DNA of 64,000 bases from assembly GCF_001905665.1 (NCBI RefSeq), contig NZ_LIVX01000007.1:434001-498000 (forward strand), given 5' to 3'. The translations under genes and the position numbers were made by a program. Positions 39,387 through 45,692 of the stretch are shown here, piece after piece. How positions within the stretch are numbered: the stretch's first letter is position 1; each line of letters begins with the position of its first letter. Below the pieces are notes generated by a model. That model had not been told where the DNA came from. It searched no databases and saw nothing but the letters and a program-made list of their open reading frames with translations. The stretch is from Streptomyces sp. CB02261 (GTDB lineage Bacteria; Actinomycetota; Actinomycetes; Streptomycetales; Streptomycetaceae).

Positions 39387-39779
39387 TCAGTCCCGGGGCA
39401 GCAGGGGGCCGAGCGGGCCGAGGTCGAGGTTGAGGTCCTCCAGCGCGAAACCGTGCTCGGCGCACAGGTCGGCGAGGCTGTCGTGCAGGGCCAGGAGGGT
39501 CGCTCCGAGCTCCTCCTCCTGGGCGTCGGTGAGGTCCCCTGCGTCCACGCGGCGCAGCGCCTGCCGCTCGATGAGCTGGCGCAGGAGCTCGACGATGGTG
39601 AGGACGAGTTTCAGCAGGTCCTCCTCGACGGTCTCGCGATCGGCACGCACGCGGTGGGCCGGGCGGTGCGCCCCGCCCTCGTGGGGGGCGGGCGGCGCCT
39701 GGGCGAGCCGGAAGGCCCGCGACATGGCGGCGCCGACGTCCTGGAGGCCCTGGCGCGGGGCGGCGGGGTCACTGCTCAC
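39387..39779 (-). CDS. gvpK: Gas vesicle protein GvpK
   Basis: 130 residues from a GTG overlapping the gvpS stop. The core LLKLVLTIVELLRQLIERQALRR (split here over 55-77) and DLTDAQEEELGATLLAL are the GvpK hallmarks, and the C terminus ends DLNLDLGPLGPLLPRD. GvpK is an accessory protein for gas vesicle assembly or size. Last gene of the gvp operon. Confidence 0.93.
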   Translation of the reverse strand: MSSDPAAPRQGLQDVGAAMSRAFRLAQAPPAPHEGGAHRPAHRVRADRETVEEDLLKLVLTIVELLRQLIERQALRRVDAGDLTDAQEEELGATLLALHDSLADLCAEHGFALEDLNLDLGPLGPLLPRD

Positions 39780-39991
39780 GGGGGGCCGCCGTCCCGCCCG
39801 CCGGGGGGCGCCGTCTCGGAGCCGACGGACACGATGAGCGCGCGCAGTGAGATCCGGACGAGGTCGATGTCCGCGATGGACAGGACGATGTCGCCGGTGA
39901 TGACCACTCCACCGCTGAGCAGCCGGTCCAGGAGGTCGACCAGGGCGACCTGCCGGCCGGGCAGCGGTTCGTGCCGCTCCGCGAGCGTCAC
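39776..39991 (-). CDS. gvpS: Gas vesicle protein GvpS (GvpA/J family)
   Basis: 71 residues from the GTG at 39991. The GvpA-family core is clear: LVDLLDRLLSGGVVITGDIV and DIDLVRISLRALIVSV. Minor structural homologue that probably sits at vesicle tips or nucleates assembly. It overlaps both neighbours by 4 nt. Confidence 0.9.
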   Translation of the reverse strand: MTLAERHEPLPGRQVALVDLLDRLLSGGVVITGDIVLSIADIDLVRISLRALIVSVGSETAPPGGRDGGPP

Positions 39992-40920
39992 GGCGCCGGC
40001 TCCCGGACGTCGCCCGCGTCGCCGGGGGAGGGGTCCTCGGCAGCCGGCATGGCGAAGGAGTACGGGGCCCAGGGGCCGGTGACCTCGACGAGGACGTCGG
40101 GAAAGTCCTGGGTGGCGTGGGTGACGGCGGCGCGGAACTCGTCGGCGTTCCGGTCGGGGACGAGGTAGGCGTCGTTGAGGACGTTCTCCCGGGGACCGGT
40201 CAGCGCACCGCTCTGCGGCGCGTGCCGCACCCGCTCGGAGGTGTAGCGGGCGGCGATGGCCTCGACGGTCCGCGCGGCCTCCTGGGCCTGCTGGTAGACG
40301 CGTTCGCGGGCGTGGTGCTGGATGCCGCGCCGCCGCAGGTACGCCTTGCCGGGCGACAGGGACTCGGCACCGTTCTGGTCGGTGGGAGGCCTGTCGGCGG
40401 CGGATGCGGAGGCGGTGGGGGCGGCGGGGTCGGAAGCGGCGGGGAGATAGATCTTGACGCCGTACTCGGTGTGGGCGTCGAGCTGGGCGAGTCGCGCGGC
40501 GAAGACGTGGCGCTGCCGTACGAGGGCTCCGCGGGCCCGGCTGTCGTCCTCGTAGACGGTGGCCATGCGCAGGGGGAGGACGGTGGCGCGGGCGGCGACG
40601 GCCTGGACGACGTCGTGGTGCGCGCGGGCGACGTTCTCCAGCCACCGCAGGTCCTCGAAGTGCTCCTTGAGAGCGGCCTCGTCGAAGTCACCGCGCGGGA
40701 CCGGACTGACGACGAACGCGAGGACGTCGGGGGCGTCGTCGGAGGGGGCCGGTGTGGCGGGGGCGCCGGAGGGGGCCGGCGCGACGGCGTCGGAGGCCTC
40801 GGTCAGGAGCGTGACCGGTGCCCGGTCGATGCCGTGCACGTCCGTCAGAAGCCCCCGCAGGGCCTCGGTGGGCCGGACGGCGGCGTAGACGTAGGTGAGG
40901 AAGTCCTGGCCGGTGCTCAC
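39988..40920 (-). CDS. gvpL: Gas vesicle protein GvpL (GvpL/F family)
   Basis: 310 residues, starting TYVYAAVRP, with the family features LPLRMATVYEDD in the first domain, YGVKIYL in the middle and VTGPWAPYSFA at the end. A disordered Ala/Pro/Ser insert lies around residues 45-65 and another near 160-180. GvpL/F proteins bind and chaperone GvpA during assembly. Longer than gvpF of this cluster. Confidence 0.93.
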   Translation of the reverse strand: MSTGQDFLTYVYAAVRPTEALRGLLTDVHGIDRAPVTLLTEASDAVAPAPSGAPATPAPSDDAPDVLAFVVSPVPRGDFDEAALKEHFEDLRWLENVARAHHDVVQAVAARATVLPLRMATVYEDDSRARGALVRQRHVFAARLAQLDAHTEYGVKIYLPAASDPAAPTASASAADRPPTDQNGAESLSPGKAYLRRRGIQHHARERVYQQAQEAARTVEAIAARYTSERVRHAPQSGALTGPRENVLNDAYLVPDRNADEFRAAVTHATQDFPDVLVEVTGPWAPYSFAMPAAEDPSPGDAGDVREPAP

Positions 40921-41351
40921 TGCGGACGCCTCCGCTTCGTCCCGGCCCCCGGACCGGGTGCCGCGTCGCCGGGCTCACCGCGGTCCTCGCCGCTCTCGAC
41001 GGGCTCCGGCTCGCCCGTCCGGTCGCGGCGCAGGGCCTCCAGCTCGGCCCGCAGGCGGCGGTTCTCCTGTTCCAGCGGGCTTCCGGTGTGCCGGGAGGAG
41101 AGCGAGGGGTCGTGCTCCCACCAGTCGATCCCCATCTCCTTCGCCTTGTCCACGGAGGCGATCAGGATCCGCAGTTTGATGGTCAGCAGCTCGATGTCGA
41201 GCAGATTGATGCGGATGTCGCCCGCGATCACGATGCCCTTGTCCAGGACCCGCTCGAGGATGTCCGCGAGGCTGGACGTGGAGCTCGACCCGTACGGCAT
41301 CGGGGCGCGGGAGGGGAAGCCTCCGGTTCGGCCGGGTAGCGGTTCACTCAC
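40917..41351 (-). CDS. gvpJ: Gas vesicle protein GvpJ (GvpA family)
   Basis: 144 residues from a GTG at 41351. GvpA-like core about 27-70 (LADILERVLDKGIVIAGDIR and LLTIKLRILIASVDKAKEMG). A coiled-coil segment (LEQENRRLRAELEALRRDR) and an acidic/Pro tail ending KRRRPQ follow. Minor shell or tip component. Overlaps gvpL by GTGA. Confidence 0.9.
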   Translation of the reverse strand: MSEPLPGRTGGFPSRAPMPYGSSSTSSLADILERVLDKGIVIAGDIRINLLDIELLTIKLRILIASVDKAKEMGIDWWEHDPSLSSRHTGSPLEQENRRLRAELEALRRDRTGEPEPVESGEDRGEPGDAAPGPGAGTKRRRPQ

Positions 41352-41373: not shown

Positions 41374-41622
41374 TCAGACGGTCCGGTTCCGGAACTCTTC
41401 GATCTCCGCCAGCCGGTCGAGCAGCTCGTCCTCCCGGAGGTCGAACTCCTCCTCCGTCAGCTCTCCCGCGAGCAGCCTCCGCTCCAGTTCGCCGAGCTCG
41501 CGCCAGACCGGGGCGGGGTCGTAGTAGGCCTCCTCGGCCTCGTCGACGACCCGCTGGGCGACCCAGGTGACCATCCGGACCGGGGCGGCGGGCAGGGTCA
41601 GCAGGCTTGTCAGCAGTCCCAC
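41374..41622 (-). CDS. gvpG: Gas vesicle protein GvpG
   Basis: 82 residues from a GTG with GAGGAGG upstream. Starts GLLTSLLTLPAAPVRMVTWV and continues with a charged helical hairpin (LGELERRLLAGELTEEEFD), as GvpG proteins do. Assembly factor of the gas vesicle shell. Confidence 0.92.
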   Translation of the reverse strand: MGLLTSLLTLPAAPVRMVTWVAQRVVDEAEEAYYDPAPVWRELGELERRLLAGELTEEEFDLREDELLDRLAEIEEFRNRTV

Positions 41623-41667: not shown

Positions 41668-42399
41668 TCATGGCGCCGAGGCCTGTACGAAGCTGTATGG
41701 AGGCAGGGGACCGGCGAACCGGAGGCCGGTGCCGCCGTCGATCTCGCGGGCCAGGTTGTCCCGCGCGGTGAGGAAGGCGTCCTTCCGCTCGTCCGCCACC
41801 AGGAGCGAGAGATTGAGGAAGTCGTTTCCGGTGGGCGGACGGGTCACGTGCTCACGGGCGAACGGCAGCAGCGCCTCGGACAGGCCGCCGGCCAGCACCT
41901 CCTGCCGCGCCTGCACCTCGCGTGCCACCAGCTCCCCCAGCGCGAGCGGCAGCTGCGGGTCGGGGTCGCCGCCGCGGATCCGGCGGTGGAGGTCCCCCGC
42001 CTCGGCCGAGTCCTTGAGGATCTGGAGGAGCAGCGGCTCCTCGTCCTCCTGGAAGGCCCGCACGTGGTACTCGGCGCAGCCCTCGACGCGTCGCAGCGCC
42101 GAGAGGTAGCCGTCCTCGTTCTCCTCCAGGACCTGGCGGACCGTCGTCTCGTCAGGAGCGATGTAGCCGAACTGCAGCGGCAGGACCGGCCCTTCGGACA
42201 TCAGGCGCTCCTGCACCTCCTGGTGGGCGAGGAGGTCCCGCCGCTTGGGCCGGATCTCTTCGGAGACCTCGCTGACGACCGCGCACAGGGGTCCCGCGGT
42301 GACCGTCTGCAAGGACGCCGGATGTGAACCGACACCGCTCAGACCGTCCAGGTGCCGTGGGTGCTCCCCAGCGGTGATCGAGTACACGTAGAGCGCCAT
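41668..42399 (-). CDS. gvpF: Gas vesicle protein GvpF (GvpL/F family)
   Basis: 243 residues; start ALYVYSITAG, core VLPLQFGYIAPDETTV and end LRFAGPLPPYSFVQ match GvpF. It is the chaperone-like partner of GvpA and follows gvpA by 3 nt. In this cluster there is no gene pair between gvpG and gvpJ, where several Streptomyces clusters carry gvpY and gvpZ. Confidence 0.93.
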   Translation of the reverse strand: MALYVYSITAGEHPRHLDGLSGVGSHPASLQTVTAGPLCAVVSEVSEEIRPKRRDLLAHQEVQERLMSEGPVLPLQFGYIAPDETTVRQVLEENEDGYLSALRRVEGCAEYHVRAFQEDEEPLLLQILKDSAEAGDLHRRIRGGDPDPQLPLALGELVAREVQARQEVLAGGLSEALLPFAREHVTRPPTGNDFLNLSLLVADERKDAFLTARDNLAREIDGGTGLRFAGPLPPYSFVQASAP

Positions 42400-42402
42400 C
42401 GG

Positions 42403-42861
42403 CTACTCCTTCTCTCGGCGTGCCGTGCGCCGTGCCGGGCGCCGTCGCCTAGGGGTCTCCGCTTCCTCCTCTTCCTCCTCCGGCTCCTCGTCCTTCGAGG
42501 ATCCGCCGGTCAGGGAGTCGGACACCGCTTCGACGGCTCCGCTCAGGGCGCCCTTGGACTTGCCGCGGGCGCCGCCCTCCATCATGTTCCCCACGACGTC
42601 GGGCAGCTGGGCGGGGGCGTTGCGGCCCGCTTCCAGGTCGAGGCGGTTGCATGCCTCGGCGAAGCGGAGGTAGGTGTCGACGCTGGCCACCACGATGCGC
42701 GCGTCGATCTTGATCAGTTCGATGCCCACCACGGAGATCCGGACGAAGATGTCGATGACCAGACCCCGGTCGAGAATCAGCTCCAGGACGTCGTAGAGGC
42801 TGCTCGTGTTGCCGCCGCCCCCTCGGGCGACGGCGCTGCCGCCTTGCGGCACCATGGTCAT
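42403..42861 (-). CDS. gvpA: Gas vesicle structural protein GvpA with a charged C-terminal extension
   Basis: 152 residues. The shell-forming core lies at about 19-67 (SLYDVLELILDRGLVIDIFV and IELIKIDARIVVASVDTYLR). An extension of about 80 residues follows, ending in an acidic block (KDEEPEEEEEEAE) and then a basic end (RRRRPARRTARREKE). Classical GvpA is about 70 residues, so the tail about doubles it, as known for actinobacterial GvpA. ATG 42861 has GGAGG upstream. Confidence 0.93.
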   Translation of the reverse strand: MTMVPQGGSAVARGGGGNTSSLYDVLELILDRGLVIDIFVRISVVGIELIKIDARIVVASVDTYLRFAEACNRLDLEAGRNAPAQLPDVVGNMMEGGARGKSKGALSGAVEAVSDSLTGGSSKDEEPEEEEEEAETPRRRRPARRTARREKE

Positions 42862-42889
42862 GGCGCCTCCTTCCCTCGGCGGCCCGTAC

Positions 42890-43216
42890 TCAGGTCGGCC
42901 GGTCGATCGTTCCTCTGCTGTAGCGGCGGGTGCGCTCGTAGGAGATCAGCTCGCCCTCCTCGTCCAGAGCGACCCGGTAGCTGGCCATCACGCTGGCGGT
43001 GTCCGGAATGCGTTCCAGTTCCACCACCTCCACCTGCGCCTCCCAGCCGTCCTGTGTCGGCTTGAGCGACGAGACGGAGTCGGGCGGTCTGCCGAGGAGT
43101 TGAGCCAGCTGCTCGGCCGCCGACTTCATGGCCGACGCGGCGTTGCGCACGCCCGAGCGCCGTCGGGAGGCAGCACGACGCGGCGTCTGCCGCTCGCGCC
43201 CTTCACCTTCTGCCAT
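42890..43216 (-). CDS. gvpO: Gas vesicle protein GvpO
   Basis: 108 residues: a basic, disordered N terminus (about 1-28), then the GvpO domain with LAQLLGRPPDSVSSL, GWEAQVEVVELERIPDTASV and a C-terminal ELISYERTRRYSRG. First gene of the gvp operon, with GGGGAG before the ATG. The gap to the divergent gene (43217-43355) is relatively AT-rich around 43250-43285 and should hold both promoters; no clear hexamers stand out. Confidence 0.92.
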   Translation of the reverse strand: MAEGEGRERQTPRRAASRRRSGVRNAASAMKSAAEQLAQLLGRPPDSVSSLKPTQDGWEAQVEVVELERIPDTASVMASYRVALDEEGELISYERTRRYSRGTIDRPT

Positions 43217-43355
43217 GGAGCACTCCCCTGGGGAGACCGCCTCTTAGAACCTAGAATGTCACTAAATGCGCCTATAAGCCTTTTGTCGAAGGCAGGAGCT
43301 CCTGAAGGCCAGGCGTCATCACCAGGTCCGCACGCACCCTGTCGAAGGGATGATC

Positions 43356-44564
43356 ATGCAGGACACGACCAAAGTCGCACTCGCAGCCGCCCTGGCCGGT
43401 GGTTATGTACTCGGCCGGGCCAAGAAGGGCCGCATGGCGTTCGCCGTGGCGACCTATGTGGCCGGCCGTCGTTTCGGCCTCGAACCGGGACAGCTGCTGA
43501 AGGCGGGCCTCTCCAAGGCCAAGGAGATGCCGCAGTTCGCCGAACTCGGCGACCAGCTGCGCGGAGAAGCCCTCGACGCGGGCAAGCAGGCCCTCAAGGT
43601 CGCCGCCGACCGCAAGCTGGCCGACCTCGCCGACTCCCTGAGCGCCCGCACCGCCGACCTCACTCGCTCCGGCGGCGGGCGGGACGAGGACGAGGCCGCG
43701 GACGAGGACGAGGAGCCGTACGAGGACGAGGACGAGGAGGAGGAAGAAGAGGAGGAAGAGGAGGACGAAGGAGCGGAACAGGGGGACGAGGAGCCGGAGG
43801 ACGAAGAGGAAGAGGAGGAGGAAGGGGCGGAGGAGCCCGAGGAGGAAGCCGAAGAGGAGCCGGAGGAACGCGAAGAGGAGCCCGAGGAAGAGGAAGAGGA
43901 GCCCGAGGAAGAGGAAGAGGAAGAGGAAGAGGAGCCCGAGGAAGCCGAAGAGGAGCCCGAAGAAGAGGAAGAGGAGCCCGAAGAAGAGGAAGAGGAGGAG
44001 CCGGAACCCGAGGAGGAGGAAGGCGAGGAAGAGGAAGAGGAAGAGGAACCGCCGCCCCCGCCGAAGCCCGCCCGTCCGACGTCCCGTGGTCGCGGTGGCA
44101 AGTCCGCGCAACGGGAAGGCGGTTCGAAGAAGGCGGCACCCGCCAAGAAGGCTCCTGCCAAGAGGGCAGCACCGGCGAAGAAGTCAGCGCCGGCCAAGAA
44201 GGCTCCTGCCAAGAAGGCCGCCGCCAAGAAGGCTCCCGCCAAGAAGGCGCCGGCCAAGAAGGCCCCGGCCAAGAAGTCAGCGGCGGCGAAGAAGTCGGCC
44301 CCCGCCAAGAAGGCTCCCGCCAAGAAGGCTGCACCGGCCAAGAGGGCGCCGGCGAAGAAGACCGCGAACGGGAAGCCTGCCGCCAAGTCGGCGTCCCCCG
44401 CCAGGAAGAGGGCCTCCAAGAAGTCCGCGGCGGAACCGAGGAAGCGGACCCCCGCCAAGAGCACCGCACGCAAGACGGCGGCCAAGAAGACCACCAGCCG
44501 TAGCCCGGCACGCAAGGCGGCCGCCAAGAAGACGGCGCCCCGCAAGCAGTCCGCGCGGAGGTAG
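43356..44564 (+). CDS. Gas-vesicle-associated polyampholyte protein (acidic block plus histone H1-like tail)
   Basis: 402 residues from ATG 43356, with GAAGGG placed better than for the ATG at 43350. A folded, Ala-rich helical N domain (about 1-105) is followed by an almost pure Glu/Asp/Pro block (about 110-230), a short PPPPPKP hinge, and a Lys/Ala/Pro-rich region (about 240-402) with AKKAPAKKA-type repeats like bacterial histone H1 homologues. Divergent from gvpO across 139 nt, so probably an accessory gas vesicle gene. Its role is not known to me. The tail could bind nucleic acid or fold back on the acidic block, or bind the acidic tail of GvpA. Confidence 0.75.
   Translation: MQDTTKVALAAALAGGYVLGRAKKGRMAFAVATYVAGRRFGLEPGQLLKAGLSKAKEMPQFAELGDQLRGEALDAGKQALKVAADRKLADLADSLSARTADLTRSGGGRDEDEAADEDEEPYEDEDEEEEEEEEEEDEGAEQGDEEPEDEEEEEEEGAEEPEEEAEEEPEEREEEPEEEEEEPEEEEEEEEEEPEEAEEEPEEEEEEPEEEEEEEPEPEEEEGEEEEEEEEPPPPPKPARPTSRGRGGKSAQREGGSKKAAPAKKAPAKRAAPAKKSAPAKKAPAKKAAAKKAPAKKAPAKKAPAKKSAAAKKSAPAKKAPAKKAAPAKRAPAKKTANGKPAAKSASPARKRASKKSAAEPRKRTPAKSTARKTAAKKTTSRSPARKAAAKKTAPRKQSARR
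43680..44050 (+). repeat. Purine-only low-complexity tract encoding the Glu-rich block
   Basis: Long run of GAG/GAA codons with interspersed CCC/CCG, giving strand asymmetry (nearly all purine on the plus strand) and many imperfect GAGGAAGAG-type tandem units. Likely length-variable by slippage and able to form mirror-repeat structures. Confidence 0.8.
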
Positions 44565-44567
44565 GAC

Positions 44568-45692
44568 ATGGCAACGTCAGACCGCGACACCGAGAAGAAG
44601 GAATCCGGTTCCGGGTTCGACAAGTTGCTCGGCGAGCTGACCCAGTACCTGGGCGCTCAGGCGGACCAACTGGCCGGAAAGGCGACGGACAAGCTCGGTG
44701 ACATCACCGACCAGCTCTACGACGTCGCCGACAACGGCGGCAAGCTCTCCGACGTCGCCGGAATCGGCGGCCGGATCCTGAAGGGCGACTCGCCGTTGAA
44801 GGCCTTCGCGGGCCAGAAATTCGGCAACATCAAGGACAAGGTGACCGAGACCGCGTCCAACCTGTTCGGCAAGGGCAAGGGTCGGAAGGGCGGCGGCGGG
44901 AAGATCGTCAACATCGTCGAGGCGATGGACGTCGGTCTGCCGCTGCGCAAGACGTACGACTACTGGACGCAGTACGAGAACTTCAGCAGCTTCGCCAAGG
45001 GCGTCCGCGACGTCTCGCGCGACGACGAGACCGGCAGTGACTGGAAGGTCAAGGTCGGCCCCTCCTCGCGCTCCTGGAAGGCCACCGTCCAGGAACAGAT
45101 ACCCGACGAGCGCATCGTCTGGACGTCGGAGGGTGCCAAGGGAAGCACCCGAGGGTGCGTCAGCTTCCATGAGCTCACACCGACGCTGACCCGCATCGTC
45201 CTCATCGTCGAGTACCACCCGGCGGGCTTCTTCGAGAAGACCGGCAACATCTGGCGGGCGCAGGGCCGCCGTCTGCGCCTGGACTTCAAGCACTTCCTGC
45301 GGTACGTCACGCTCAACACCGACGAGCCGGAAGGCTGGCGCGGCGAGATCCGCGACGGCGAGGTCGTCCGTTCCCACGAGGACGCCCTCGAAGCGGAGCA
45401 GGCCGAGGAGGAAGGCGAGGAAGGCGAGGAAGAGGGCGAGGAAGGCGCGGAGGACGAGTACGAGGAGGGCGAGGAGACCGACGAGGAGGACGAGGGCGAG
45501 GAGCCGGACGAGGACGGCTACGTCGACGAGTCCGAGGAGGAGGAAGAGGCGGAGCCCGACGAGGAGGGCGAGTACGAGGAGGAGGAGCCCGAAGAGGAGG
45601 AAGAAGGCGACGAGGAGGAAGAGCCCGAGGAGGAGGAAGAGGAGCCCGAGGAAGAGGACGAGACCTCGCCTCCCCGCCGACGCCGGCGGTGA
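44568..45692 (+). CDS. SRPBCC (cyclase/dehydrase-like) gas-vesicle accessory protein with acidic tail
   Basis: 374 residues, starting 3 nt after the previous stop. N-terminal helical region about 1-100 (LTQYLGAQADQLAGKATDKL). A START/SRPBCC domain spans about 110-255 (EAMDVGLPLRKTYDYWTQYE, VDVSRD-like turns, WRAQGRRLRLDFKHFLRYV). Then about 100 residues of nearly pure Glu/Asp/Gly end in SPPRRRRR. SRPBCC domains hold hydrophobic ligands or lipids. Location next to gvpO and the charge pattern shared with GvpA and the preceding protein suggest a role in vesicle assembly or clustering. Confidence 0.75.
   Translation: MATSDRDTEKKESGSGFDKLLGELTQYLGAQADQLAGKATDKLGDITDQLYDVADNGGKLSDVAGIGGRILKGDSPLKAFAGQKFGNIKDKVTETASNLFGKGKGRKGGGGKIVNIVEAMDVGLPLRKTYDYWTQYENFSSFAKGVRDVSRDDETGSDWKVKVGPSSRSWKATVQEQIPDERIVWTSEGAKGSTRGCVSFHELTPTLTRIVLIVEYHPAGFFEKTGNIWRAQGRRLRLDFKHFLRYVTLNTDEPEGWRGEIRDGEVVRSHEDALEAEQAEEEGEEGEEEGEEGAEDEYEEGEETDEEDEGEEPDEDGYVDESEEEEEAEPDEEGEYEEEEPEEEEEGDEEEEPEEEEEEPEEEDETSPPRRRRR

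Follow-up and report, generated by a model that had tools for sequence, protein, structure and literature searches.

Acid-then-basic C-terminal tails in GvpA, GvpY and GvpZ of a Streptomyces gas vesicle locus, and a possible electrostatic role

Gas vesicle clusters of the Streptomyces coelicolor type are described under the gene order gvpOAFGYZJLSK, and in the S. coelicolor listing gvpY corresponds to SCO6503 and SCO0653 and gvpZ to SCO6504 and SCO0654 (PMC5839063). The same gene set as in the two S. coelicolor clusters (SCO6499-6508 and SCO0649-0657) lies in the 64,000-nucleotide stretch of Streptomyces sp. CB02261 analysed here (the window; contig NZ_LIVX01000007.1, positions 434,001 to 498,000), where the C-termini of the shell protein GvpA and of two previously unnamed proteins run from an acidic block into a basic end. 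Judged by place and order, these two proteins are probably the GvpY and GvpZ of the named Streptomyces cluster.

Several features of these proteins have been described before. The richness of S. coelicolor Gvp proteins in Arg, Glu and Pro has been published together with a storage hypothesis (PMC5839063), and six GvpA proteins, apparently including that of S. coelicolor, are reported to differ mainly at their ends (PMC12081810). SCO0654 is reported among whi-dependent genes (PMC3878966). The literature searched, so far as excerpts of it extend, gives expression data but no tested function for Streptomyces gvpY and gvpZ (PMC5839063; PMC3878966), and a 2022 review prints the S. coelicolor cluster with a gap at the place of Y and Z (PMC9501494). 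Literature searches on glutamate-rich or disordered tails returned no title on actinobacterial Gvp tails. Proteins of Serratia sp. ATCC 39006 bear the same letters (PMC4982088; PMC10344784), probably through a clash of names, and the Serratia genes named gvpY and gvpZ have been deleted in other work (PMC10344784).

The closest functional parallel comes from Bacillus megaterium, where GvpU and GvpT are reported to aggregate vesicles via the long C-terminal region of GvpA (PMC10903477; Li et al. 2024 as cited in PMC11445434). The vesicle clusters of this species are reported to loosen in guanidine and less so in salt, in a study that could not confirm the GvpU effect (PMC11223475). GvpU and GvpT, described as exclusive to Bacillota (PMC10903477), may be likened to GvpY and GvpZ by description, as non-shell Gvp proteins that reportedly act on vesicles through a long GvpA C-terminus, in a species whose vesicle clusters respond to guanidine and salt (PMC10903477; PMC11445434; PMC11223475). 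General Pfam and NCBIfam scans of the window proteins and of 31 GvpY members did not name GvpU or GvpT, for which models may not exist.

The three window genes and their tails are as follows.

42403..42861, minus strand: gvpA, shell protein with the long actinobacterial C-terminus, 152 residues (PF00741, E=3.6e-12; NF006872)
42406..42492, minus strand: GvpA tail, an acidic 12-mer, then 17 basic-rich residues (tail test)
43356..44564, plus strand: gvpY, first noted as the 43356 protein (homology and synteny to Y of canonical clusters; naming after PMC5839063)
43686..44048, plus strand: GvpY acidic stretch, net charge about -97 (tail test, charge count)
44049..44561, plus strand: GvpY basic stretch of Lys/Ala/Pro repeats, net charge about +58 (tail test, charge count; tandem repeats within 44134-44365)
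44568..45692, plus strand: gvpZ, an SRPBCC protein (PF03364, E=3.3e-20; START/SRPBCC fold match, E=2.1e-8; synteny)
45384..45662, plus strand: GvpZ acidic tail (tail test, charge count)
45663..45689, plus strand: GvpZ terminal cap, 9 residues including 5 Arg (tail test)

The initial annotation had claimed an acidic block and then a basic end in all three proteins, and both are present in the open reading frames concerned. The acidic 12-mer of GvpA comprises residues 124-135, while in GvpY about 120 largely acidic residues precede 171 residues rich in Lys, Ala and Pro, and in GvpZ, a protein of 374 residues, about 93 largely acidic residues lead into the Arg-containing cap. The net charge of the basic end is +58 in GvpY, +8 in GvpA and +5 in GvpZ. 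The tails are unlike one another: that of GvpY is an acid-basic diblock, that of GvpZ a polyanion with a short Arg cap, and that of GvpA a small mixed tail. The shared charge pattern proposed earlier has to be qualified: all three tails run from acid to base, but they differ in charge balance. From their composition, the tails are predicted to be disordered.

Outside the tails, the three proteins differ in how well they are characterized. GvpA scores 46.7 bits against PF00741 (cut-off 25) and 193.9 bits against NF006872 (cut-off 151), the latter match spanning profile positions 8-142 of 143. Residues 97-113 of GvpA (window 42523-42573) form a GARGKSKGALSGAVEAV stretch that leads from core to tail and has recognisable counterparts in other families. 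The head of GvpY is homologous to the Y that precedes gvpZ in canonical clusters, and G18, Y19, G22, R23, K26 and A30 are invariant among 31 rows; the ATG at 43356 agrees with the start of several homologues, while a start at ATG 43350 would give 404 residues. Scans of 31 members gave scattered names only and no consistent Pfam or NCBIfam family for this N-terminal domain, and a structure model of the head consists of helices (predicted template modelling score 0.35) with no PDB match below E=4.8. GvpZ, adjoining gvpY, carries the PF03364 domain at residues 122-245 (73 bits, cut-off 23.4), and its model contains a confident SRPBCC domain from residue 111, with predicted local distance difference scores of 84-98 in ten-residue blocks apart from one block at 73. 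It shares this domain and the START-like fold with polyketide cyclase-like proteins (best match to a solved START-like structure at E=2.1e-8), to which it adds an N-terminal region of about 110 residues, mostly of low model confidence, and the polyanionic tail. Part of the finding is ordinary: the genes had been described, and a curated family model already takes in the GvpA tail. The present analysis adds a measure of how rare the tails are in the genome, evidence that they recur at other gvp loci, and the charge constraint in GvpY.

A strict C-terminal test for an acidic block followed by a basic one, with thresholds chosen after the three tails had been seen, was passed by 3 of 1044 predicted proteins, namely GvpA, GvpY and GvpZ. 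These proteins were called by a simple gene finder in a sample of the 7.7 Mb genome that totals 1.23 Mb and includes the window, and account for 83% of it. At two looser settings 5 and 8 proteins passed, while the reverse order, at three settings, was found in 0, 1 and 3. The GvpJ tail appears weakly acid-then-basic by eye and failed the strict test. A genome-wide search for runs of seven GAN codons found 60 overlapping matches, of which 20 fall in gvpY, and none of the 12 distinct open reading frames at the first 20 of the 60 matches passed the strict test, several of these being probably shadow frames and one extending beyond its locus. Within the genome sample, then, the tails are confined to this locus and do not occur equally often in unrelated proteins, which was one of the two outcomes named at the outset as refuting the electrostatic proposal.

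The tails recur among relatives. Because the order statistic for the whole tail is weak on short or one-sided tails, the strict C-terminal test is given alongside it. The named set comprises the best 80 of 557 relatives of the GvpY head, which are the closest to the window protein and not independent. Among the 74 named loci with gvp genes, the strict test was passed by 73 of 74 matched GvpY, 60 of 71 GvpA and 49 of 73 GvpZ open reading frames, and among the 6 named loci without gvp genes in the stretch (one of only 3.6 kb) by 6/6 GvpY and 2/5 GvpZ. A wider sample, dominated by Streptomyces rows that are not independent, gave a significant acid-before-basic order in 82/92 scorable GvpY tails, 44/94 of GvpZ and 22/99 of GvpA (sums over groups), with one GvpZ tail in the opposite order. 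The comparison across actinobacterial gvp loci that had been proposed thus bears out recurrence of the tails, but the order is robust in GvpY only; it is a tendency in GvpZ and mostly a Streptomyces matter in GvpA. Medians show strongly acidic GvpZ tails at most loci, and tail lengths range widely among relatives.

Charge constraint was assessed between the window and up to 12 close relatives, from single-base amino-acid changes at charged codons, with shuffled partner codons as the control. Charge was kept in 129 of 199 changes in the GvpY tails, against 54 of 287 in the control, which makes a good case for constraint in this protein. All-pairs counts over 13 loci are inflated by alignment and non-independence, for which reason the shuffled control against the window was used. 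At 41 of 58 Streptomyces loci GvpY is near neutral (absolute net charge at most 10), and the window protein is unusually acidic, with a net charge of -39 against a Streptomyces median of -3.

GvpZ and GvpA also occur together. Among 246 genomes of the class, 59 have a match to the GvpA query, counting one (G088) on a weak match that is probably GvpJ, and 53 of these 59 have GvpZ at E<=1e-50 (counted by hand). Conversely, 53 of the 54 genomes with GvpZ at that level have a GvpA-query match (also by hand). The genomes with a GvpA-query match and no such GvpZ are G229, G233, G304, G305, G374 and G375, of which at least G229 and G374 have weaker GvpZ matches.

These results are consistent with a reading in which the C-terminal tails of GvpA, GvpY and GvpZ would surround the vesicle with an electrostatic layer through which vesicles are spaced apart or clustered, a reading to which we assign a probability of roughly 0.37. 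The reading draws on the existence of the tails, their confinement to this locus within the genome sample, their recurrence at the loci of relatives, and the retention of GvpY charges above the shuffled control. Also counted in its favor are the co-occurrence of Y-Z with GvpA-query matches, the near neutrality of GvpY, the pairing of Y and Z that persists as they move (described below), the parallel of the B. megaterium vesicle clusters, and a complete cluster without Y-Z (locus L235, G375 C16:383000-395000) whose GvpA tail is Lys/Ala-rich, has no acidic block and resembles the basic half of GvpY. Genome G375 has no GvpZ match at E<=1e-20. Mechanistically, the tails would be disordered and face the cytoplasm, and those of GvpA would stand out from the shell as a charged but nearly neutral brush. 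GvpY would dock by its conserved helical head and contribute the acid-basic diblock, and GvpZ would dock by its SRPBCC domain and contribute the polyanion; together the tails would determine if vesicles in the cytoplasm repel one another, pack or form clusters, much as GvpU and GvpT may do in B. megaterium.

A more specific proposal, that actinobacteria evolved a gas-vesicle condensate system of their own, independent of GvpU/GvpT, is unlikely. In it, the GvpY diblock polyampholyte, the GvpZ polyanion on its SRPBCC body and the charged brush of GvpA would make up a phase responsive to salt, by which vesicles are gathered or spaced. If the tails do organise vesicles electrostatically, this would offer a first handle on GvpY and GvpZ, and engineered acoustic reporters could draw on it as an independent example of vesicle clustering.

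A number of observations weigh against the electrostatic layer. Charge-keeping is thin in GvpA (14/22 against 4/13 shuffled) and weak in GvpZ (135/166 against 111/169 shuffled), and for neither protein do half of the tails in the wider sample show a significant order. Outside Streptomyces the order is significant in 1 of 28 GvpA tails, a 42-residue tail being a weak test, and for GvpZ it is so in 1/10 of family f18, against 6/6 in f19 and 5/8 in f17. Complete clusters without adjacent Y-Z were found at L235, L238 and L239, in one of the two clusters of L237 and in a second cluster of the CB02261 genome. Conversely, Y-Z (G037) or Z (G185) occurs in genomes without GvpA: neither had a GvpA-query or PF00741 match, while the positive controls G000, G024 and G135 were found in the same PF00741 search. 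Furthermore, vesicles are stated in two sources not to have been found in S. coelicolor or soil bacteria (PMC4982088; PMC5839063), which is contradicted by a statement elsewhere that soil bacteria including Streptomyces form them (PMC9501494).

Two forms of charge co-variation were also considered and rejected, and their failure belongs on the same side. The 77 loci used exclude L078, L237 and the second gvp cluster of CB02261, as well as any locus that lacked A, Y and Z or the two anchor motifs. Raw correlations between the charges of different proteins were significant, but 0 of 7 pairs survived independent contrasts (all p>0.1; for example, r=-0.04 between the acidic blocks of GvpA and GvpY, and r=0.19 between the basic block of GvpY and the acidic tail of GvpZ). 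Since phylogenetic correction leaves no co-variation of tail sizes between proteins, tail-to-tail pairing is not supported, and neither is the idea of a shared pattern that acts between the proteins. Within proteins, the correlation between acidic and basic blocks is r=0.53 in GvpY (p=0.0002), r=0.19 in GvpA (p=0.04) and r=0.25 in GvpZ (p=0.23), but in GvpY it disappears when tail length is controlled for (partial r=0.12, p=0.32). The co-variation in GvpY thus follows from tail length and gives no evidence of charge balancing. Taken as a whole, the interpretation offered in the initial annotation is partly supported.

Among the alternatives, assembly chaperoning fares best, although it is rather unlikely. 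Here the acidic tails, together with the SRPBCC pocket of GvpZ, would keep hydrophobic GvpA and early assemblies soluble and pass subunits to the growing shell, the tails solubilising by entropy and charge. Binding of hydrophobic ligands is common among SRPBCC/START domains, and the fold match of GvpZ suits this role, as do the strongly acidic GvpZ tails at most loci and the position of Y-Z among assembly genes in canonical clusters. However, several clusters hold assembly genes without adjacent Y-Z, some of which could be served by Y-Z elsewhere in the genome, and chaperoning alone leaves the large Lys-rich block of GvpY unexplained.

That block is central to a nucleic-acid tether, in which the Lys/Ala/Pro repeats would attach vesicles to the nucleoid by binding DNA or RNA in the manner of bacterial histone-H1-like tails. 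GvpY matches HC2 at E=1.1e-6 and an H1-like model at E=1.6e-8, and a Kitasatospora homologue is annotated 'histone protein'. Both matches lie under curated cut-offs (29.4 against 40 in Pfam and 35.1 against 80 in NCBIfam), so that GvpY falls outside the HC2 family, and although its repeats resemble those of histone H1-like nucleoproteins, it differs from them in having a head domain of its own and an extensive acidic block. Within the same protein, this acidic block equals or exceeds the basic one in charge, in Streptomyces generally and in the window, which should weaken free DNA binding. The tether is improbable. The co-variation of the GvpY blocks, which follows from tail length, is no longer counted against it.

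It is quite improbable that the tails are loosely constrained repeat expansions of little function, in which GAG/GAA and AAG-GCC repeats grow by slippage. Tandem-repeat arrays do lie beneath both GvpY blocks and the GvpZ tail, tail lengths vary widely, and both GvpY blocks scale with tail length, but charge in GvpY is kept far above the shuffled control and less repetitive versions of the tails recur in other families. A nitrogen or amino-acid store, as suggested for S. coelicolor under ArgR control, with Arg, Glu and Pro together making up to 42% in GvpA2 (PMC5839063), is very improbable here, as the basic block of GvpY is mainly Lys, the GvpZ tail is mainly Glu/Asp, and storage does not need ordered acid-then-basic blocks.

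The remaining features of the locus are as follows.

43217..43355, no strand: divergent region between gvpO and gvpY (window sequence inspected by eye)
42890..43216, minus strand: gvpO (PF05800, E=1.5e-35)
41668..42399, minus strand: gvpF (PF06386, E=6.4e-60; F and not L by gene order)
41374..41622, minus strand: gvpG (PF05120, E=2.8e-27)
40917..41351, minus strand: gvpJ (PF00741, E=1.9e-16; J by gene order)
39988..40920, minus strand: gvpL (PF06386, E=5.4e-50; L by gene order)
39776..39991, minus strand: gvpS (gene call; PF00741 match at window 39833-39946, C16:473833-473946; S by gene order)
39387..39779, minus strand: gvpK (gene call; conserved across loci; the Kitasatospora gene at the same place is annotated gas vesicle protein K)

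The minus strand thus carries gvpK, S, L, J, G, F, A and O, while gvpY and gvpZ run in the opposite direction from 43356 and 44568. This differs from S. coelicolor-type clusters in that the pair lies outside the gvpOAFGYZJLSK operon and points away from gvpO; many other Streptomyces clusters have the pair between gvpG (or F) and gvpJ. The divergent layout is found at 49 of the 80 named loci, which means that place in the operon is no firm criterion for GvpY, and in 9 of 60 stretches chosen around GvpZ matches, 56 of which have gvp genes beside Z. GvpY was seen beside GvpZ in most stretches read, and the two remain paired while their position in the cluster changes. The gvp operon of S. coelicolor is reported to be under SigB regulation (PMC5733086), for which reason the region corresponding to that between gvpO and gvpY was scanned for a SigB-type motif in relatives with the divergent layout; there was no match in any of the 49 scanned.

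Some further loci deserve mention. The second gvp cluster of this genome (C16:203334-206736, L103-L104, outside the window) reads O A F G J L S K, with no Y or Z, and its GvpA tail has a shorter acidic stretch. The Y-Z pair of G037 (L057, C22:244500-258500) has weak tails, and its GvpZ ends without the Arg cap. Streptomyces adustus has two gvpY-like genes on one contig (L331 and L333), one beside a gvp cluster and the other before a Z with no gvp gene in the stretch. The divergent layout also occurs on a Kitasatospora plasmid, and Z is found with gvp genes on plasmid records of Kitasatospora and Rhodococcus (L254 and L255), from which it follows that the module may travel between replicons.

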